Shown piece by piece: positions 3,648-62,422 of a stretch of DNA of 64,000 nucleotides. The stretch lies in the NCBI RefSeq assembly GCF_020181355.1, contig NZ_CP084004.1, positions 1-64,000 on the forward strand, in the 5' to 3' direction. Origin of the DNA: Collinsella aerofaciens (GTDB lineage: Bacteria > Actinomycetota > Coriobacteriia > Coriobacteriales > Coriobacteriaceae). The notes below the pieces were generated by a model. The model searched no databases. It had not been told where the DNA came from and worked only from the letters and a program-made list of their open reading frames with translations. Position 1 is the stretch's first letter. Each line of letters starts with the position of its first letter. Position numbers and translations under genes: made by a program.

Positions 3648-3675
3648 AAAAGGGCCGGTTGCAGCCGGCCCTTTA
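3648..3675 (+). terminator. hairpin terminator after the 30-codon frame
   Basis: Ten-base arms AAAGGGCCGG (3649-3658) and its complement (3665-3674) with a 6-base loop. The T tract is only the three T of the stem end, so strength is moderate. Confidence 0.65.
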
Positions 3676-3894
3676 GACGATAATACCTGCGTTGCCCGCG
3701 CTTCCGAAGTGTGACTAGCTGAGGAGCGGGTTCCGCAGCACATCCTGATTTTACCCAGCGAGACGGCTCTTTTGCAGCCGCTCCACCGATTATTTACATC
3801 TGGCACCCTCAAACAATCAGACGACAGTCCGCACTCCTGCGAGCTGCCCCGTTCCTCTAGCTATCGGATCGCAGCGCCGACCGGCACTACTCCC

Positions 3895-12000: not shown

Positions 12001-12098
12001 GCGCCCGCCAGAGCGAGCAAGGTGCCTTGAAAGAGGAGGGCATTGACCTGGCGGTCATGCCCGACGATTGAAAGGCAGATTGCCGCTCTGGCGGGCGC
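12001..12098. repeat. 98-bp element with 15-bp perfect terminal inverted repeats
   Basis: GCGCCCGCCAGAGCG (12001-12015) and its exact complement (12084-12098) flank 68 bp. The element fills most of the space between the NadE-like gene 3' end and the ruvC promoter. The inside keeps an open frame reading ...KEEGIDLAVMPDD then stop, with no convincing start. It may be a long terminator hairpin, a small non-autonomous element or a gene remnant. Confidence 0.6.
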
Positions 12099-22234: not shown

Positions 22235-22298
22235 GTTGCGGTGAAATAGTTCCCGCTTGGGCCACCTGGGCCGCAATACAGGAACTATTCCACCGCAA
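22235..22298. repeat. TTGCGGTGAAATA palindromic element, copy 1
   Basis: GTTGCGGTGAAATAGTTCC (22235-22253) pairs with GGAACTATTCCACCGCAA (22281-22298), with one small bulge. It lies 12 bases past the addA stop. Three more copies are at 33274, 61997 and 62358. Confidence 0.88.
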
Positions 22299-33273: not shown

Positions 33274-33336
33274 TTGCGGTGAAATAGGGACTGTTTAAGC
33301 GTTTAAAACCGCCAAACAGTCCCTATTTCACCGCAA
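33274..33336. repeat. TTGCGGTGAAATA palindromic element, copy 2
   Basis: A perfect 23-bp inverted repeat (33274-33296 and 33314-33336) with a 17-base loop, between the convergent mnmA and M42 peptidase genes. It begins 18 bases after the mnmA stop and can act as its terminator. Confidence 0.92.
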
Positions 33337-34545: not shown

Positions 34546-34661
34546 CCCCTGCCCGTTAGCCCCAGAATCTTTCCGCAGGACAGAAGGAGGCCCCGCCGCA
34601 CGTAGTGCGCAACGGGGCCTCCGACATGTCCGAGGACGATTCTGGGGCTAACGGGCAGGGG
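34546..34661. repeat. 116-bp cruciform-like element with 24-bp perfect arms
   Basis: The arms (34546-34569 and 34638-34661, core GCCCGTTAGCCCCAGAATC) are exact complements. A second hairpin is nested inside (GGAGGCCCCG near 34587 against its complement near 34613). It lies 14 bases after the alcohol dehydrogenase stop. It may act as a 3' stabiliser or terminator, but lacks a T run. Confidence 0.88.
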
Positions 34662-53277: not shown

Positions 53278-55527
53278 TTACTTGCGCTTGCCGCCGCCGT
53301 CGCCGGGGCGACGGGAGCTGCCACCGCGCTTGCCGCCACGGCTGTTGCCGTAGCTGCCACGGTTATCGCGACCGCCGGCACGGCCGCCACGGGAGCCGGC
53401 CTGGTTGCCGCCACGACCACCACGATAGCCGCCGCGACGCTCTTCGCGGGTATCGTCGTAGTTGCGCCAGTCATCGCGACGATCACGGCTGGCACGCGGG
53501 TCACGACGATCGCGCGACTCGTTAGAACGACCAGCGCCGCCGCGGCCGCCATTGCCGCGAGCACCCTCGCGACGCTCGCCGCCGCGGCTACCGCGCTCTT
53601 CAAAGCGCTTGCCGCCACGGGACTCACCGCCACGGGCACCTCGCTCACCGCGACCCTCGCCGCCGCGACGCTCATCACGGCCACCGCGCTCGTCATCACG
53701 ACCGGAACGACGGCGGTCGCCCGCACCGCGCTTGCCACCGCGCGAACCGCGGCCCTCGTCCTCGCGCTCGACACGACGACGGCCGCCACGGTCCTCGTCC
53801 TCACGACGACGGCGGTGTGCCTCGCCCTGGAACTGCTTGGCACGGCGCTCGGCACGGTTGCCGCGCGGGGCCTGCTCAACGACACCAGCACCGCCGCGCT
53901 CCTCGGCAGCCACCTCGCGGGCCACGCTCTCCACAGCCTCGTCCACGCGAGCCTGAACGCCCTCGCGCACGCGGGTCTTGCCGCCGCGCTTGGGACGGCT
54001 CGGACGCTCACCGTCGCCGCGACGCTCGTCTCGACCGCGGTTGGAACGACCGGCCACATCACCGTAATCGTCGCCGTTGCGTTTGCCGTCGCGACGCGCC
54101 TGCTCAAGCTTCTTCTTGCTCTTGGACTTGCCGCGCTTGGTCTTCTTCTTCACCTTAAAGGCCGCAGGATCGCGCTCGGGGTCAACCGCGGGCGGATTGG
54201 GGCCCACATGCAGGTCGCCGGCCTCGTAGATGTCGGCGGTCTTGTCCATGAGCTTCTCGATCTCGTAGAACTCATCGACGTCCTGCTCGGTCACAAACGT
54301 AATGGCCCAGCCCAGCTCGCCGGCGCGGCCCGTACGGCCAATACGGTGGATGTAGTCGGTCGGCTCGGCCGGCACGTCAAAGTTCACGACGTAGCGCACG
54401 TCGCTGATGTCGATGCCGCGGGCGAGCACGTCGGTTGCCACCAACACGTCGACGGTACCGTCGCGGAAGGCCGAAAGGGCACGCTCGCGCTGGGCCTGGC
54501 TGCGGTTGCCGTGAATCGCGGCGGCCTTGATGCCCTTGCGCTCCAGACGACGGCAGCAGCTGTCGGCGCGGTGCTTGGTGCGCATAAAGACGATGGTGCG
54601 CTCCGGGCCCTCCTTCTTGAGGAACTCGGGCAGCAGGTTGTTTTTGGCCTCGATGGACACCGGGAACACAAACTGGTCGACGGTGTCGGCGGTCGACGTG
54701 GCAGGTGTGATCTCCACGCGAGCCGGGTCGCTCACCAGGTCGGTGATCTCGCCCACGGCCTCCTCGTCGAGGGTCGCCGAGAACAGCAGCGTCTGACGCT
54801 CGGCCGGCGTCTCGCGCACAATGCGCCGGACGGCGGGCAAAAAGCCCATATCGAGCATGCGGTCGGCCTCGTCGAGTACCAGCACTTTGACCTCGTCCAG
54901 GTGGCAGGCGCCCTGCTCGATCAGATCGACCAGACGGCCCGGCGTTGCGACCAGGATGTCGCAGCCGTACTTAAGTGCCGCGGTCTGCGGCTTGTAGCTC
55001 ACGCCGCCCACGACGGTCACGGCAACATGGCCGGTGACGTCGGCGATTTTGCTTGCGACCTCGTCGATCTGCTGGGCGAGCTCGCGCGTGGGGGTGATGA
55101 CGAGCATCACGGGGCCGCGGCCGTTGCCCTCGGGCTTTTTAACACCGCGACGGCGGTTGCGGCCGCCGCGCTCGCGCACGGGTTTGGGAGGAGCGATGTG
55201 CTCCAGATTGTTCATGGTCGGTAGCAAAAAGGCAGCCGTCTTGCCGGTGCCGGTCTGAGCGGCGGCAAGCAGGTCACGGCCCTCGAGCACTACGGGGATC
55301 GAGCCGGCCTGCACGGGCGTGGGCGCCGTGTAGCCCAGGTTCTCGATAGCACGAAGCATCTCGTCGGAGAGGCCCAGCTCGTCAAAGGCGGGCAGGCTCT
55401 CGGTAGCGGACTCGACGGCCTGGGCGGCATTGGCCTCATCGGCGGCATCGAAGGCAGCCTGGGTCATGGCCTCGCGGGTCTCGTCCAGAATCTCGGCGTC
55501 GGTGACGTCAGATACAGAATTACGCAT
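53278..55527 (-). CDS. DEAD-box RNA helicase with long RGG-type tail
   Basis: 749 residues from ATG 55527. The core holds the Q motif (FDELGLSDEMLRAIENLGYTAPTPVQ), Walker A AAQTGTGKTAAF, PTRELAQQ, DEAD as VLDEADRMLDMGF, SAT, and HRIGRTGRAG. A basic insert of about 22 residues (RERGGRNRRRG...) follows motif I. The tail of about 290 residues from about 460 is extremely rich in Arg, Gly, Asp and Glu (RGG and RGGR repeats) and should bind RNA nonspecifically. Such CsdA/RhlE-like helicases act in ribosome assembly and cold or stress RNA remodelling. It has its own strong terminator. Confidence 0.95.
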   Translation of the reverse strand: MRNSVSDVTDAEILDETREAMTQAAFDAADEANAAQAVESATESLPAFDELGLSDEMLRAIENLGYTAPTPVQAGSIPVVLEGRDLLAAAQTGTGKTAAFLLPTMNNLEHIAPPKPVRERGGRNRRRGVKKPEGNGRGPVMLVITPTRELAQQIDEVASKIADVTGHVAVTVVGGVSYKPQTAALKYGCDILVATPGRLVDLIEQGACHLDEVKVLVLDEADRMLDMGFLPAVRRIVRETPAERQTLLFSATLDEEAVGEITDLVSDPARVEITPATSTADTVDQFVFPVSIEAKNNLLPEFLKKEGPERTIVFMRTKHRADSCCRRLERKGIKAAAIHGNRSQAQRERALSAFRDGTVDVLVATDVLARGIDISDVRYVVNFDVPAEPTDYIHRIGRTGRAGELGWAITFVTEQDVDEFYEIEKLMDKTADIYEAGDLHVGPNPPAVDPERDPAAFKVKKKTKRGKSKSKKKLEQARRDGKRNGDDYGDVAGRSNRGRDERRGDGERPSRPKRGGKTRVREGVQARVDEAVESVAREVAAEERGGAGVVEQAPRGNRAERRAKQFQGEAHRRRREDEDRGGRRRVEREDEGRGSRGGKRGAGDRRRSGRDDERGGRDERRGGEGRGERGARGGESRGGKRFEERGSRGGERREGARGNGGRGGAGRSNESRDRRDPRASRDRRDDWRNYDDTREERRGGYRGGRGGNQAGSRGGRAGGRDNRGSYGNSRGGKRGGSSRRPGDGGGKRK

Positions 55528-55797
55528 ATGTTGTTGTTCCTTATCTGCACGCGCAATGGGCACGGCATGCGGCCGCGCGGGCGTGCTTGGTAGTGCGCTA
55601 ATACATACAAAAACAGGTGCGCACAGAGAGGACGTTGCTCAGCACGCTGGCGATCGCTTTGGCAGCCCTATCACGCGCCGTCCAGACGCAGCAGCTCTAA
55701 GCGATGGAGCAGATTCGCCGCCGGTTAGTATACCCGCACTCCGTATGCCCCCACGTAAACCACAGATGACGAGGCGGACGGGGCGGGCCTGGCCGAT

Positions 55798-55856
55798 TGT
55801 CTCAATCTGTAACAGATGCAGGGCAAAACCGGGTCCAAATGTTACAGAACAAGACA
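55798..55856. repeat. 59-bp TGTCTC palindromic element, isolated copy
   Basis: TGTCTCAATCTGTAAC at 55798 pairs with GTTACAGAACAAGACA ending at 55856, 59 bases end to end. It lies between the divergent DEAD-box and FHA genes, 65 bp upstream of the FHA gene's -10. Three tandem copies of the same length lie at 59294-59513. The remainder of 55528-56034 holds no gene. Confidence 0.88.
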
Positions 55857-55898
55857 GAGGGGGATTTCCGTCCAGTCCAAACCAAATCTCTCAGTCTT

Positions 55899-55927
55899 CC
55901 TGCAATTTCGAACATGTGGCCTATAAT
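55899..55927 (+). promoter_or_regulatory. promoter of the FHA gene
   Basis: A perfect TATAAT (55922-55927) with CCTGCA at the -35 position (55899-55904, 17-bp spacer). The -35 is poor. The leader is about 100 bases. Confidence 0.6.
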
Positions 55928-56034
55928 GTTGCTTTGGTTACGCTGTATATTGCGCAGCCATTTAATACGTCGCCCACCGGGAGCCATTAATTCCTATCGC
56001 CATATTGGCTAGGAAGCAATCAAAGGAGGTATCC

Positions 56035-56997
56035 GTGGCAGCAGAGACGCCTTGCTCGGTCCTCTATAACGATATTCGCTCGTTCGGCGGTCTTAAACAT
56101 CTCGAGATCGCCCGAATGCTCATCAATGGAAACTCTTATCTCGGCAGTACCCTGCTCGAGAAATGCTCTTCCAACCGCTCGTATCTCACCCGTTACATCG
56201 TCCATCGCAAGCCTGACCAGTGCGCGCCCGCCATCTACAGCGACTTTACCGTCACCACGCTCAACCTTTCCGCGGCAATCTGCAGCAAGCTCGGCGGCGG
56301 CGAGTCCGCCTATCGGGCAATCGCCGAGCACTATCGCGGTCCGGCCGCCAACGAAATGATGTCGGCTCTCGCCAGCTACAAGCTGGACAGCCGCCTATAT
56401 GCAAATGCCCTCAATCGCATCGACAACTTTGACGGCAATGCCGTGCGTGAGAAAAGCACGCTTTACCTTATGCTCTTTGTGGCAACGGGGGCGCTCGCCG
56501 ATCCCGTTCAGGGCGTGGCCACCGTCGAGCGCTTTTGCGACAGCAAGACAGGCGGGCACTTTGGCACCACCGAAACTACCGTAGGACGTGGCTTTATGAG
56601 CAGCCTGGGGCAGCCACGCACCGTCGCCCCTAACCTCGGTCTGCTCAGAACCCATGCCGACAACTGCGCCGACATGCAAATCCATCCCCTCACACGCGAT
56701 CCGCGCGGCACTGTGATTGGTTCTTTGCCCAAAACCTCGCCCAGCATCACCGATGTAGGCGCCGACGCCTCGCGCGAGCATCTTCGTATTTGGCTCGAGG
56801 GTGAGCACTGGTACGCCCAGGGCCTTGGATCGACCAACGGCACAGTGCTCGAATCGGGCGCGGGTGACGGCGATACCGTAATCGAGCCGCCCCGCGACCA
56901 ACGAGAGCCCGGCAAAGTCTATCCCCCAGTGGAAATCGAAAACAGCGACAGGCTCCATCTGGGTCTCTACACGACATTCCTTGTCATTGTGGACTAG
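56035..56997 (+). CDS. FHA-domain protein with novel N-terminal region
   Basis: 320 residues from GTG 56035, which follows a perfect AAAGGAGG. Residues about 220-318 form a forkhead-associated (phosphothreonine-binding) domain: GTVIGS, ASREHLRIWLEGEHWYAQGLGSTNGTVLESG; the conserved Ser, His and Asn are present. Residues 1 to about 175 are an alpha-helical region (SYLGSTLLEKCSSNRSYLTRYIVHRKPDQCA) of no family I know. Between them, GTTETTVGRGF resembles the ETT phosphorylation site of mycobacterial GarA. A Ser/Thr kinase gene follows, but a terminator lies between. It may be the kinase's target. Confidence 0.85.
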   Translation: MAAETPCSVLYNDIRSFGGLKHLEIARMLINGNSYLGSTLLEKCSSNRSYLTRYIVHRKPDQCAPAIYSDFTVTTLNLSAAICSKLGGGESAYRAIAEHYRGPAANEMMSALASYKLDSRLYANALNRIDNFDGNAVREKSTLYLMLFVATGALADPVQGVATVERFCDSKTGGHFGTTETTVGRGFMSSLGQPRTVAPNLGLLRTHADNCADMQIHPLTRDPRGTVIGSLPKTSPSITDVGADASREHLRIWLEGEHWYAQGLGSTNGTVLESGAGDGDTVIEPPRDQREPGKVYPPVEIENSDRLHLGLYTTFLVIVD

Positions 56998-56998
56998 C

Positions 56999-57040
56999 AC
57001 GGACGGCGATCGGAAGACGGTCGCCGTCCGTCTTTCGTCT
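56999..57040 (+). terminator. terminator between the FHA and kinase genes
   Basis: Eleven-base perfect arms ACGGACGGCGA (56999-57009) and complement (57021-57031), then CTTTCGTCTTCT. A TATCAT at 57096-57101 could be the kinase gene's own -10. Confidence 0.8.
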
Positions 57041-57168
57041 TCTACCTTCTGCGTCGTAAACGACAATACTCAGCGGCATACGTGGGCAGTGCGGCTATCA
57101 TGGTTCTTTACCGATATCCGCACTGCTCACGTATACGTGCGGCAACCCATGCCAGACAAAGGAACGCC

Positions 57169-58344
57169 ATGGATACTACCGATAGCGCCTATGGCGACAA
57201 ACTCATCCGTCTTGACACGTTCGACACCGCCGTGGCGGTCGACCCCAACGCCGAGGACGAGGCCAAGCGTCGGTTTATGACGCTTATTCTCCAGACGGCC
57301 CACCGCAACAACGGCAACATCGGGCACGTGCTGCGCGCGACCAACACGAGCGGCGAGGTCTTTGCCGTCAAGCTACTCAAGGACAACGCCATCCTTTCCG
57401 GCCAAGCCCCCGACCGCTCCGCCGAGCAATCGGCAGCGCACCTGGCCAACACCGCCGCGCTGTTCGAGGAGTACCGTCATCTGTGTACCGTCTCGCACCT
57501 GCGCGGATTTCCACGCGTCTATGGCTACGGATCGTGCGAGGATGACCCGCTCATCCTCATGGAGTGGGTCGAGGGCACCTCACTCAAGCAGGCGCTACCT
57601 CTGCTTCCGCACGACGCCTCGGGCGGGCTGACCACCCAGATGGTCGCCGCCGTCGGAAACGCCGTGCTTCGTGCGCTCTTGATGACCCAAGGCCTCGTGA
57701 ATCCGGTCGTCCATCGCGACCTGTCGCCTGCCAATATCATGTTCCGCACCACCAGCCGAACACTCGAGCAGCAGATTGCCGATTGTTCCTTTGACCCCTG
57801 CCTCATCGACATGGGCTCCGCGACCATGGCTCTCGGCGACGACACGATCACCCGGCGCGCCGACATCTGGCGCTTTGCCACACCCGCATACGCCGCGCCC
57901 GAGATGCTCACGCAGGATATCGAAGGCATCGCGGCTCTTCGCCGTTCGCCGGCAATCGATGTCTACGCGCTTTCGAGCATTCTGTACCAGCTCTACAGCG
58001 GTCGCAAACCGTTTGACTTTGAGTCGACGGACGCCACTGCAACCGGCTCGTTCTATCTCGTAAAGACCAAGACCAAGCCGGCGCCGCTCGAGCTGCGCTG
58101 CGAGGGCGATGAAGCGCTCGTCCAAATCATCATGAAGGGTCTCTCAGTCGAGCAGTGCGATCGTCCCACCGAGCAGCAGATGCTCGAGGTGCTCTCGGCA
58201 TACCTCACTGATGCCGAATCCGAGGGCCGCGAAGGCACAGGAGACGAGGCCGCGATTGATATCGATTCTGGCACGCACCTTAAGGTCGACGTCGCCGGCG
58301 AGCGCGCACGAGAGATCCTGAATCAGGCCGCCACGATGCCATGA
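57169..58344 (+). CDS. Ser/Thr protein kinase (Hanks-type)
   Basis: 391 residues from ATG 57169 (AAAGGA six bases upstream). The kinase fold is complete: the ATP lysine Lys68 in VFAVKLLKD, a helix-C Glu near 100 in LFEEYRHL, the catalytic loop VHRDLSPANIMF (Asp184, Asn189), a metal-binding DMG variant of DFG (214-216), and APEM (243-246). There is no membrane helix or PASTA domain, so it is cytoplasmic. The last about 90 residues are acidic. Its stop overlaps the start of the DUF6273 gene by four bases (ATGA), so the two are coupled. The FHA protein is a likely partner. Confidence 0.9.
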   Translation: MDTTDSAYGDKLIRLDTFDTAVAVDPNAEDEAKRRFMTLILQTAHRNNGNIGHVLRATNTSGEVFAVKLLKDNAILSGQAPDRSAEQSAAHLANTAALFEEYRHLCTVSHLRGFPRVYGYGSCEDDPLILMEWVEGTSLKQALPLLPHDASGGLTTQMVAAVGNAVLRALLMTQGLVNPVVHRDLSPANIMFRTTSRTLEQQIADCSFDPCLIDMGSATMALGDDTITRRADIWRFATPAYAAPEMLTQDIEGIAALRRSPAIDVYALSSILYQLYSGRKPFDFESTDATATGSFYLVKTKTKPAPLELRCEGDEALVQIIMKGLSVEQCDRPTEQQMLEVLSAYLTDAESEGREGTGDEAAIDIDSGTHLKVDVAGERAREILNQAATMP

Positions 58345-59252
58345 CCCGCCGCCGCTTTATTATCGGCGGCGCTATCGCAGCCGTTGCGGGGCTCAGCGTT
58401 ATCGGGGCGGCAACCCATGGCTTTGGCATCCCCGACTACCTTGACGGCATCCGCGGTTCACTTGACGACTACACCTGGGATCAGCTGCAGGAGATTTCGC
58501 TCAAGATTAAGGCCGCCGAGACCCGTAGCGAGGCACGCGAGATTGCCAAGCGTTACCACCTGCTCGACGCTGATGGGCATATCCCCTATCCGTGCACCAA
58601 GCGTGTCACGCTCACCAACGGGCTGGAGGTCGGCGCGCAGCTTGTGGGCATCCGTCACGATGAGCTTCTGGACGGTACGGGCAAGGCCGGGCTGACGTTT
58701 ATGTTCGACGCGGGTATTGCCGAGCGCAACGCTGCGGCTGAACCGCCGAGCGCCGGCTGGGCAGATTGCGAGCTGCGGGAATGGCTCAACGGCGACGGCC
58801 TTAAGCTGCTGCCCAACGAGTTGCGCACACTCATTAAAGGGGTCAAGAAGGTCTCGAACAATGTGGGCGCCGCCAACAGCGCATCGTGCCTGAGCGAGTT
58901 GCCCGCAACCCTTTGGCTGCCCGCCATGGTCGAGCTGTGCGGTACGCAACCGCCCGATTCGTTTACCGAGGGCTATCACTACCTGGCAGACATCTACAAC
59001 GGCGAGGGCAGGGAGTATCAGCTCTTCCGCGAGCTCAAGGTGAGCCCGTATTCCACGAACGAGACGATGGTCCGCCAGTGGAAGGGCAAGGACACCTGTT
59101 GGTGGGAGCGCACGGTGAGCCCCGACACATCGGAGAGCGAAGGCACGCTCTATATGAACCGCGTGGGGCACGACGGCGACGTCTTTACGTACGCAACGCC
59201 TGCGGAAAAGCCAAGCAAGCTAACCTGTGTGATCCCCGGGTTCTGTATCTAG
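58341..59252 (+). CDS. Tat-exported DUF6273-like protein
   Basis: 303 residues starting MTRRRFIIGGAIAAVAGLSVIGAA, a twin-arginine signal or signal anchor. The body matches the DUF6273 layout: VGIRHDELLDGTGKAGLTFMFD, then SAGWADCELREWLNG, LPNELRTLIKGVKKVSNN, LWLPAMVELCG and KDTCWWERTVSP. Such domains occur in surface and sulfatase-modifying-factor-like proteins of gut Firmicutes and Actinobacteria; the activity is unknown. Translational coupling with the kinase suggests that intracellular phosphorylation and this surface protein work together. Confidence 0.8.
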   Translation: MTRRRFIIGGAIAAVAGLSVIGAATHGFGIPDYLDGIRGSLDDYTWDQLQEISLKIKAAETRSEAREIAKRYHLLDADGHIPYPCTKRVTLTNGLEVGAQLVGIRHDELLDGTGKAGLTFMFDAGIAERNAAAEPPSAGWADCELREWLNGDGLKLLPNELRTLIKGVKKVSNNVGAANSASCLSELPATLWLPAMVELCGTQPPDSFTEGYHYLADIYNGEGREYQLFRELKVSPYSTNETMVRQWKGKDTCWWERTVSPDTSESEGTLYMNRVGHDGDVFTYATPAEKPSKLTCVIPGFCI

Positions 59253-59293
59253 GCGGCGGGCGTCTTGCCGTGACGGGACCCCTCCCCGGCAAT

Positions 59294-59513
59294 TGTCTCG
59301 ATCTGTAACAGTAAGGGGTCAAAAACCTCTCTAGATGTTACAAATCAAGACATTTGAGTTGACCGCGGACGGTTTGTCTCGATCTGTAACATCTAGCAGG
59401 AAAAACGGTCCTTAGGCGTTACAGGTTGAGACGTTAAGTTGTGGCTCGATGTAATGTCTCGATCTGTAACAGTTACTCGACAAAAACGGGTCTAGTTGTT
59501 ACAGATTGAGACA
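59294..59513. repeat. tandem array of three 59-bp TGTCTC palindromic elements
   Basis: Copies at 59294-59352, 59375-59433 and 59455-59513, each exactly 59 bases, with 22- and 21-base spacers (period 80-81). Ends are TGTCTCGATCTGTAAC and a complement such as GTTACAGATTGAGACA, giving about 16-bp stems that tolerate G-U pairs. The 27-base middles differ but share an AAAAAC-like centre. The array begins 41 bases after the DUF6273 stop. Confidence 0.93.
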
Positions 59514-59587
59514 TTAGACCGGCTACGGTCCGCCGACCTGGCTATCACCTCGACCAATACCAGAATGTCATACATTTCAATCTCCAC

Positions 59588-59618
59588 TGGACACCCCCAG
59601 GGGGTATGGGTGTATAGT
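59588..59618 (+). promoter_or_regulatory. copA promoter with CsoR-type operator
   Basis: TGGACA (59588-59593), a 19-bp spacer, and TATAGT (59613-59618). The spacer contains ACACCCCCAGGGGGTATG, a G/C-rich palindrome of the kind bound by CsoR copper repressors. csoR lies 2.9 kb downstream. Confidence 0.7.
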
Positions 59619-59665
59619 ATCGGATGGTTAACATTTCCGACACTACGCCACAGAAAGGAGAAGCC

Positions 59666-62011
59666 ATGGCTCAAGATAAGTTCGATGTGGGCGGCATGAC
59701 GTGCGCCGCCTGCCAGGCGCACGTGGACCGTGCCGTGAGCAAGCTCGACGGCGTCCAAAGCGTCGCGGTCAACCTGCTCGCCGGCTCCATGCTGGTCGAC
59801 TACGACCCCGCGCAGGTCTCCCCCGACGACATCTGTACCGCCGTCGATCGCGCGGGTTATTCGGCCTCGCCCGTTAGCACGGGCACCGATGCCGCCAACT
59901 CAAACGGCAACGCGCAAGCCAGGTCCGGCGCCGCCCATATGGAGTCGCCGACCAAAAAGTTGGAGGCCGCCGCCTCTGCCATGCGCACCCGCCTCATCAT
60001 CTCGATCATCTTCCTCATCCCACTGTTCTACATAGGCATGGGGCACATGCTCGGTTGGCCACTGCCCGGCGTCTTCACCGACCACACCCACAACATGACG
60101 CTCGCGCTCACCGAGCTCGTCCTGCTCATTCCCATCGTCTACGTCAACGACGCATACTTTATCAACGGGTTTAAATCGCTTACGCACGGCGCGCCTACCA
60201 TGGACGCCCTTATTGCCGTGGGCGCCACTGCTTCCATCGCCTGGTCGCTCTACGCCATGTTCATCATGGCCGACCAGCTAGCCGCGGGTCAGGTCCACGA
60301 GGCCATGATGACAAGCATGGACAACCTGTATTTTGAGAGCGCCGGCACAATCCTGTCGCTCGTCACCGTGGGCAAATATCTCGAGACACGCAGCAAATCC
60401 AAGACCGGCGGCGCCATCGAGGCGCTCATCGACTTGGCGCCCAAGACCGCGACCGTCGTGGCAGAGGACGGCACCGAAACCACCGTCGATGTCGACGCCA
60501 TCCTTCCCGGCCAGGTCCTGCGCGTGCGCCCCGGCGAGTCCATCCCCGTCGATGGCGTGGTGCTCGAGGGCAGCTCGGCCGTGGACGAGAGCGCGCTCAC
60601 CGGCGAGTCCATCCCCGTGGAGAAGACCGCCGGCGACACTGTCAATGCGGCCACGGTCAACCGCACGGGCTCGTTTACCTTCCGCGCCACGCGTGTGGGC
60701 GCCGACACGTCGCTCGCCAAGATTATCCAGCTCGTCGAGGACGCCAACGCCACCAAGGCGCCCATCGCCCGCATGGCCGACAAGGTCGCCGGCGTGTTCG
60801 TGCCCGTAGTATTCGCGATCTCGGCCGTGACCTTTGTGGCGTGGATGGTGCTGACCGGAAGCGTCAACGAAGCGCTTACCTCCGCCGTCGCCGTGCTGGT
60901 GATCAGCTGCCCGTGCGCGCTGGGCCTGGCCACGCCAGTCGCCATTATGGTCGGCACCGGCAAGGGCGCCGAGATGGGCATTCTCTTTAAGAGCGCCGAG
61001 GCGCTGGAGAACCTGCGCAGCGTGGGCACCGTGGTGCTCGATAAGACGGGCACGGTCACCCGCGGCAAGCCTGCCGTGACCGATATCGTGGTAGCCACGC
61101 GCGCTGACGGCTCGCCCGCCATGAGCGAAAAGGCGCTGCTCAAGTTGGCCGCCGCGCTGGAACGCTCAAGCGAGCACCCGCTGGCCGAGGCGATTATGGT
61201 CGAATGCGAGACACGCGGAATCGTCGCGCGCATGGTCGAGGACTTTACCGCCGTGCCCGGTCGCGGCGTCACAGCACGCGAGGGGCAAAACGCCATCGCC
61301 GCCGGCAACATACGCCTGATGGACGAGCTGGGCGTTACCGTGCCCGCGGGTCTTGCCGAGCAATTTGCCGCCGAGGGCAAGACGCCGCTGTTCTTTGCCA
61401 AGAACGGTGAGCTTGCCGGCACCATTGCCGTAGCTGACGAGGTCAAGGAGACGAGCGCCGAGGCCATCGCCGCATTGCGCTCGCTTGGCGTCGACGTGCG
61501 CATGCTCACCGGCGACAACCGCGTCACTGCCGAAGCAATCGCCCGCCGCGTGGGACTGAGCAGCGAGCAAGTCATCGCCGACGTCCTCCCCGCCGACAAG
61601 GAACGCCATGTGCGCGAACTGCAGGACGCGGGCGGCAAGGTCGCCATGGTGGGCGACGGCATCAACGACTCCCCCGCCCTGGCGCGCGCCGACGTGGGCC
61701 TTGCCATCGGCACCGGCGCAGACATCGCCAAAGAAGGGGCTGATGTGGTGCTCATGCGCAGTGACCTCATGGATGTCGCCCGCGCCATCGAGCTTTCGCG
61801 CGCCACGATCCGCAACATCAAGCAGGACCTGTTCTGGGCGCTGTTCTACAACGGCATCGGCATTCCGCTGGCGGCGGGCGTGTTCTTCCCGCTCACCGGG
61901 TGGCAGCTCTCGCCAATGTTTGGCGCCGCGGCCATGAGCCTGTCGAGCGTCTGCGTTGTGAGCAATGCGCTGCGCCTGCGAACCTTTAAGCCATCAGTTG
62001 CGGTGAAATAA
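59666..62011 (+). CDS. copA: copper-translocating P1B-type ATPase
   Basis: 781 residues from ATG 59666 (GAAAGGAG upstream). It exports Cu(I) from the cytoplasm. One N-terminal heavy-metal domain ([11 protein letters not shown], Cys13 and Cys16) is followed by membrane helices, the TGES actuator loop ([11 protein letters not shown]), the CPC metal site [12 protein letters not shown] (about 413-424), the phosphorylation site [11 protein letters not shown] (about 458), SSEHPLAEA, and [10 protein letters not shown] (about 664). The last residues VAVK and the stop are encoded by a palindromic repeat. Likely repressed by CsoR. Confidence 0.97.
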
Positions 62012-62061
62012 GGCGTAACATGCTTAGCTAAACCGCTATTTAGTCCGTATTCCACCGCAAC
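61997..62061. repeat. TTGCGGTGAAATA palindromic element, copy 3
   Basis: GTTGCGGTGAAATA (61997-62010) pairs with TATTCCACCGCAAC (62048-62061) with one bulge. It overlaps the copA stop codon (62009-62011), so copA's last four codons lie inside the element. Confidence 0.88.
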
Positions 62062-62357: not shown

Positions 62358-62422
62358 GTTGCGGTGAAATAGTTCCGGTTTAAACGCTTTAAGCCTTCAA
62401 TCAGGAACTATTTCACCGCAAC
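62358..62422. repeat. TTGCGGTGAAATA palindromic element, copy 4
   Basis: GTTGCGGTGAAATAGTTCC (62358-62376) and its perfect complement (62404-62422), 45 bases past the copZ stop and 43 bases before csoR. Confidence 0.92.

Follow-up and report, generated by a model that had tools for sequence, protein, structure and literature searches.

A fixed-length 59-bp intergenic palindrome of Collinsella aerofaciens with conserved ends

In the first 64,000 nucleotides of contig NZ_CP084004.1 of Collinsella aerofaciens (forward strand; the whole of this stretch is called the window here) three genes, for an FHA-domain protein, a protein kinase and a DUF6273 protein, are bracketed by palindromes of identical length. 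For what is such a repeat kept? A first-pass annotation of the sequence had offered three answers: an element resembling repetitive extragenic palindromes (REPs) or bacterial interspersed mosaic elements (BIMEs), a set of protein-binding RNA hairpins at the 3' end of the operon, or the boundary of a transferable cassette. We followed the 59-bp unit through the host genome and through related genomes. The answer that we favour, with about even confidence, is a duplex-DNA element resembling BIMEs and the REP doublets called REPINs, with ends that are paired putative protein-binding sites.

Anatomy, copy number and distribution of the unit

All four palindromes described by the first-pass annotation were recovered, at 55798-55856, 59294-59352, 59375-59433 and 59455-59513, each of them 59 bp long. 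The tandem spacing of 80-81 bp held for the last three, with start-to-start distances of 81 and then 80, and the AAAAAC-like centre was present. With the end motif TGTCTCRATCTGTAAC (16 bases, at most 3 mismatches) nine matches were found in the window, namely the eight arms and an unrelated sequence with 3 mismatches at 82-97; the expected number was 0.40, and 100 dinucleotide shuffles never gave as many as nine. A unit is assigned to the strand bearing its central TTT, which places all four on the minus strand. A covariance model built from 47 units (R1) scored the single unit upstream of the FHA gene at 63.3 bits (E 5.5e-14), and units 1, 2 and 3 of the array downstream of the DUF6273 gene at 64.0, 58.1 and 71.1 bits. 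Unit 3 had zero arm mismatches to the degenerate consensus. The gaps between the three units in the unit scan were 22 bp (59353-59374) and 21 bp (59434-59454).

Oriented by its centre, the consensus begins with a 17-bp arm YRTCTCRATCTGTAACA, continues with a 25-bp centre and ends in the mirrored arm. At the dyad of the centre stands TTT, accompanied by a weaker TAG/CTA pair; the orientation score was 586, compared with 78-100 in ten sets of shuffled centres. The unit ends read YRTCTC/GAGAYR in the oriented profile, position 1 being C in 25% of the units. Among the units of the host genome mean pairwise identity was 86% for the arms and 49% for the centres. Measured from centre to centre, the two arms of one unit are separated by 42 bp and the facing arms of adjacent units by 38-39 bp.

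The host Collinsella genome (2.28 Mb) was found to contain 49 units in 22 intergenic arrays of 1-4 units. All were 59 bp long in a scan that allowed 50-69 bp, and the gaps between them were 21-22 bp, with one of 23. R1 gave 98 strand matches at the same 49 places, the best 150 of 471 first-look candidates being scored. The 17-base arm, searched with at most 2 mismatches, had 50 matches in forward and 41 in reverse orientation, whereas the reversed control had 0. At least two further lone arms without a partner are found near 416496 and 910001. Scripted gene calls placed every one of the 22 arrays in intergenic DNA: convergent genes flank 8 of them, co-directional genes 9 and divergent genes 5. 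In each of the nine co-directional settings the array is closer to the 3' end of the upstream gene than to the start of the next gene. As separate observations on the host genome, no array was located at 1.72-2.25 Mb, and a DnaA-like match at about 752 kb scored below the family cut-off.

Of 297 genomes of the order, 23 matched a strict pattern, and every one of the 23 belongs to Collinsella; among the matches listed all contigs bearing names were also Collinsella. Over 251 bases the array region of the window has 100% identity with a C. aerofaciens record. Across 43 genomes of the genus R1 gave 54-128 strand matches in 22 (about 27-64 units), one or two in 5 and none in 16; two genomes reached 128, the number scored, so that for these the count is at least 128. 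Among the five, the match in one genome (G018) was discarded as an unrelated palindrome. Another (G066) has shortened units, a third (G183) has one unit beside a 263-bp stretch that is 96% identical to the flank of a host array, and two (G237 and G204) have one unit upstream of clpB, at the position of a host array. A candidate for a related family, TGTCGCATCTGACAC, was rejected, with just 2 copies in 1 of the 43 genomes. Among 28 genomes of other genera four had weak matches to R1. In a sister genus these include 55-bp palindromes with TGTCTC ends, different inner arms and a T- or A-run centre, a pattern seen in 2 of the 14 genomes searched for it (two in G207, one in G058). There was no match in viral contigs searched with the strict pattern or in phage records searched by blastn. 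The sole match in a plasmid record was in the 899,693-bp 'plasmid 6' of C. aerofaciens TSDC17.2-1.1, which judged by its genes is probably chromosome. The 59-bp family is thus clade-limited and occurs in quantity only within part of one genus. In the search of the whole genome and of other Collinsella genomes, which the first-pass annotation had proposed as a check, random scatter over thousands of sites without conservation was not seen. Among the matches listed, no description of the family was found in the open-access literature.

Constraint on ends, centre and length

Length was determined over 134 sources, made up of the window, 13 host loci and 120 loci from a pattern scan of genome contigs. 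In these, 438 of 442 units were exactly 59 bp long (50-69 allowed), and 260 of 270 gaps within arrays were 21 or 22 bp. As the contig-scan loci had been sampled with an exact pattern, the count was repeated on those 334 of the 393 non-host units that were sampled independently of their own match. It was found that 330 of the 334 were 59 bp long, and 198 of the 334 had no match to the sampling pattern. For comparison, 203 alignments of ortholog flanks, retained at 70% identity or more, showed 143 indel events against 1492 substitutions. About 622 substitutions are present in the centres of 251 ortholog pairs, for which about 60 indel differences are expected at the flank ratio; these pairs are confined to 59-bp units, and the observed side of the comparison is the 4 odd lengths among 442. 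The sequence of the centre is free and its length is held.

Constraint was also resolved base by base. Over 234 ortholog pairs that were independent of the sampling pattern, the constrained positions of the arms showed 0.033 differences per site, compared with 0.26 for positions 7/53 inside the same arms, 0.21 for the two outermost bases at each unit end and 0.12 for the centre. The central TTT showed 0.016; it is absent from the sampling pattern and from unit detection, but makes up 3 of the 25 bases used to pair orthologs. An earlier count on 251 pairs was biased, because the sampling pattern fixes those very arm positions, and the sampling-independent count gave the same outcome. Free positions lie directly beside fixed ones, which points to base-specific recognition and hardly to gene conversion tracts.

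The two arms vary independently of each other. Covariation, which the first-pass annotation had proposed to look for in the stem, was not found among 47 paralogs: 71.9% of the cells were paired, compared with 74.8% in shuffles, and each of the 500 shuffles equalled or exceeded the observed fraction. Pair 7-53, which varies most among the inner arm pairs, was GC in 15, GU in 13, AC in 10 and AU in 9 of these paralogs. None of the centre registers tested paired above expectation beyond z 1.9, and the dyad register was lower (z -4.3). Between orthologs 404 arm changes were one-sided and 58 two-sided, 40 of the 58 keeping the pair, in a sample that is biased by the pattern.

A protein complex binding both ends would explain why the ends are conserved in their bases, why the centre is conserved in length only, and why the two ends accept the same few substitutions, each independently. 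Comparison with related genomes suggests that a protein reads the two DNA ends, rather than that a folded RNA acts. The two 17-bp recognition sequences would face each other at 42 bp, which corresponds to four helical turns at 10.5 bp per turn, with the short T-tract at the dyad between them, and one complex may bind both arms at once. Because the units are stacked at 80-81 bp, a bound array would form a regular nucleoprotein patch between transcription units. Its role would then be architectural, in topology or in insulation between genes, and not the regulation of a single gene.

Several points weigh against this reading. Ends and length would equally be fixed if a transposase recognised the DNA in single-stranded form. 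A second palindrome family of the same genome, TTGCGGTGAAATA, is exactly 63 bp long in 18 of the 19 copies found and yet shows changes of the pairing type, so that a fixed length may be a by-product of spread. A/T phasing near 10.5 bp, as might be expected of wrapped DNA, was not found in the unit; the peaks are at 15 and 7.5, and 1815-2420 of 5000 permutations reach the observed power. Orthologs were paired by a centre identity of at least 17/25, which lowers the apparent rate of the centre, TTT included. Finally, a unit call requires at most 6 arm mismatches, so that decayed units are missed and the constraint holds for recognisable copies.

Mobile elements, RNA hairpins and recombination boundaries

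In its layout the 59-bp family comes closest to REPINs, REP doublets forming hairpins in Pseudomonas fluorescens (PMC3116915), and to BIMEs, which in enterobacteria bind gyrase and integration host factor (PMC2817692). Like REPINs it has two conserved inverted ends of about 16-17 bp and a variable spacer of kept length, and it is extragenic, with tandem clusters and decayed singlets (PMC3116915). It differs from them in having no REP-associated tyrosine transposase (RAYT) gene beside the copies examined and no compensatory changes, in its 49 units rather than hundreds, in positions common to several genomes, and in centres that differ within an array (PMC3116915). The likeness to BIMEs consists of alternating orientation, regular spacing and varying unit number between genes, the arms alternating with 25-bp and 21-22-bp spacers; in contrast, the sequence is unrelated and the arm itself has no evident stem-loop (PMC2817692). 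REPs usually exceed 100 per genome (PMC2817692), and the family is below this with 49 units in the host and about 27-64 or more in the 22 genus genomes. The GTAG- and CGTC-tagged REPs are palindromes of 20-40 bp (PMC3733652). With these the units share that they are palindromic, intergenic and often downstream of genes, but they are 59 bp long and lack the conserved unpaired tag (PMC3733652). CGTC occurs at the unit end only in a minority and is then part of the arm. Membership of the REPs was therefore rejected on size, tag and RAYT adjacency, and what remains of the REP/BIME-like assignment in the first-pass annotation is the layout of extragenic inverted ends in regular tandem units.

This layout is also what a selfish non-autonomous mobile element would show, either a REPIN or a miniature inverted-repeat transposable element, with a transposase recognising the ends in trans and the copies being mostly immobile descendants. 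We regard this as a possible but rather unlikely explanation. It is in line with the tandem clusters and the importance of spacer length in REPINs (PMC3116915), with the solitary and truncated copies, one of them cut by an IS21-like insertion, with the confinement to part of one genus, and with the related-looking 55-bp palindromes of the sister genus. The candidate enzymes argue against it. The host genome has five Y1 transposase genes, two IS200-like and three RAYT-like when split by length and score, and a Y1 match was found in 37 of the 43 genus genomes. At 25 Y1 loci (5 in the host, 20 in genus genomes) there was no arm pair and one lone arm with 3 mismatches. RAYT-like genes are also present in genomes without the 59-bp element, and a RAYT was rejected as the cognate enzyme. 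In addition, no target duplication was seen within the two flanking bases, the span tested, which are A/T-rich on both sides and no more often identical than by chance (121 identical, 122.7 expected), viral contigs and phage records gave no match, and copies at shared positions remain constrained and do not drift. The arm sequence and fixed length of the units appear unlike those of integron attC sites.

In three of the 25 Y1 loci (L217, L229 and L231) GGGGACAG motifs flank the gene on either side, as in the tyrosine transposases between terminal inverted repeats (PMC3733652). A RAYT-like gene of 276 aa lies beside a 95-bp palindrome with GACGGGGCTATTTTAGCTACCC arms (L046 965-1059; L222 2831-2925), and a 49-bp palindrome related to the latter was seen at L236 7300.

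RNA hairpins at operon 3' ends, acting in mRNA stabilisation, transcription termination or protein binding, are in our view very unlikely. Both strands of the four window copies give good RNA folds (z -3.9 to -7.7), as palindromes must. The position of the arrays nearer the upstream 3' end in all nine co-directional settings, with eight more arrays between convergent genes, would fit such a role; five of the 22 are between divergent genes. The first-pass annotation had noted that stem substitutions frequently preserve G-U pairing, which did not hold: on the plus strand of the window the 68 arm pairs include 4 G-U, 5 A-C and 1 other. Similarly, in 21 copies that lie between co-directional genes the sense strand had 309 Watson-Crick pairs, 20 G-U, 19 A-C and 9 others, so that G-U is matched by A-C. 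The T-tract occupies the loop instead of following the stem, and its orientation varies within arrays. Terminator-like sites at 59000-59800 numbered 1, compared with 0.5 in shuffles, and Rfam gave no match at 55500-59700 up to E 5. Together with the missing covariation this leaves the RNA-hairpin reading, including the protein-binding RNA hairpins of the first-pass annotation, not supported.

Arrays could also act as recombination boundaries that promote gain and loss of the gene blocks between them. Flanking homology was obtained for all 22 arrays in at least three fetched loci each, with unit numbers from 1 to 8. In three arrays that were aligned, whole units had been gained and lost and centres replaced. 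One locus of an uncultured Collinsella (L116) is without the approximately 3.4-kb FHA-kinase-DUF6273 block, and the DNA of 55856 and 59564 is joined there via a two-unit array. Moreover, the 263-bp stretch in G183 starts at a unit, and so does the homology of G237 and G204 to the host clpB region; the latter is confounded, because the host clpB array has an IS21-like insertion element on its other side. Comparisons were non-collinear in 73 of 147 cases at arrays, as compared to 21 of 101 at intergenic controls and 6 of 65 at gene-midpoint controls. The excess was no longer significant (30 of 98 versus 21 of 101 at intergenic controls, p = 0.14) after post hoc removal of four arrays that coincide with or adjoin IS21-like insertions and two arrays at 411 and 416 kb among paralogous operons for phosphotransferase systems (PTS) and glycosidases. 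Most informative loci were collinear at both window arrays (6 of 8 and 5 of 7). An invertible centre was rejected, with 251 matches between genomes in the same orientation and 4 inverted only. Plain homologous recombination between repeats accounts for the events, and no dedicated enzyme is needed. The cassette boundary of the first-pass annotation thus has one clear instance in L116 and is weak in general, and we consider a dedicated boundary function very unlikely.

The IS21-like element, with ends TGTTAGCGCCGG, is present in six copies in the host genome, of which three measure 2.4 kb and the other three 4.6 kb. Two are inserted inside 59-bp units, at host C1 75776-78151 and 910040-914685, with 4-bp target repeats CTGT and GGCT. 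As four of the six copies are elsewhere, it was rejected as a dedicated palindrome-targeting element. At host C1 408600-419500 (L035) two PTS and family-1 glycosidase operons follow one another, and behind each of them come an array and a convergent regulator gene.

Neighbouring genes, other palindromes and the meaning of the family

Between the single unit and the array in the window lie, on the plus strand, the genes for the FHA-domain protein (56035-56997; Pfam FHA 5.7e-06), the protein kinase (57169-58344; Pfam Pkinase 1.1e-18) and the DUF6273 protein (58341-59252; Pfam DUF6273 7.8e-08), the last ending 41 bp before the array. All three rest on scripted gene calls, including the starts of the first two. 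The kinase and DUF6273 genes (57169-59252) are two frames that overlap at 58341-58344, and in NZ_OY725717.1 a single 2085-bp gene is annotated across the matching stretch. To the left of the single copy is a DEAD/DEAH-box helicase gene on the minus strand (53278-55527; Pfam DEAD 1.6e-46), with the same annotation in NZ_OY725717.1. A heavy-metal P-type ATPase gene (59666-62011, plus strand) lies to the right of the array. Elsewhere in the window a Collinsella-1 RNA (RF01700) was found at 3652-3848 on the minus strand with 212 bits.

Copies of the 63-bp family TTGCGGTGAAATA were found in the window at 22236-22298, 33274-33336, 61998-62060 and 62359-62421 and at host C1 79211. It resembles the 59-bp units in being intergenic, of fixed length and present in the same genomes. 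It differs in its unrelated arms, in complementary stem changes seen by eye (GGGA/TCCC, GTTCC/GGAAC, CGGA/TCCG), and in having no 80-bp tandem arrays among the copies listed. A 63-bp footprint common to both families was dropped, because the arms of the TTGCGGTGAAATA family extend to 67-73 bp. Three groups of hairpins of 98-124 bp were also seen, each with an inner core common within the group (for example TTCCGCAGGAC...ATGTCCGAGGAC) and outer arms of 14-28 nt that are perfectly complementary and different at each locus. They are located in the window at 34546-34661 and 12001-12098, and in the host at L238 15705, L239 5303 and 17359, L243 2015 and 16064, L249 13460 and L237 2728. The window examples had no Rfam gathering match. 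Such a pattern resembles wholesale covariation or an inverted duplication of the site of insertion.

Taken further, paired protein binding to the 59-bp units may belong to a clade-specific system of chromosome architecture, which we put forward tentatively. A sequence-specific protein complex of the C. aerofaciens group would bridge the two 17-bp sites at a distance of exactly 42 bp across the T-tract and stack at 80-81 bp on about 20 intergenic arrays, with selection keeping nearly every copy. The unrelated fixed-length palindromes of sister lineages would then represent parallel forms of such a system that use different recognition sequences. Palindromic repeats between genes are commonly interpreted as RNA hairpins or as the result of RAYT-driven spread. 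The 59-bp family separates conservation of bases from conservation of length, and its stem shows no selection for pairing. It may thus offer a testable case, in common gut bacteria, of a repeat that is kept for paired protein binding to DNA.

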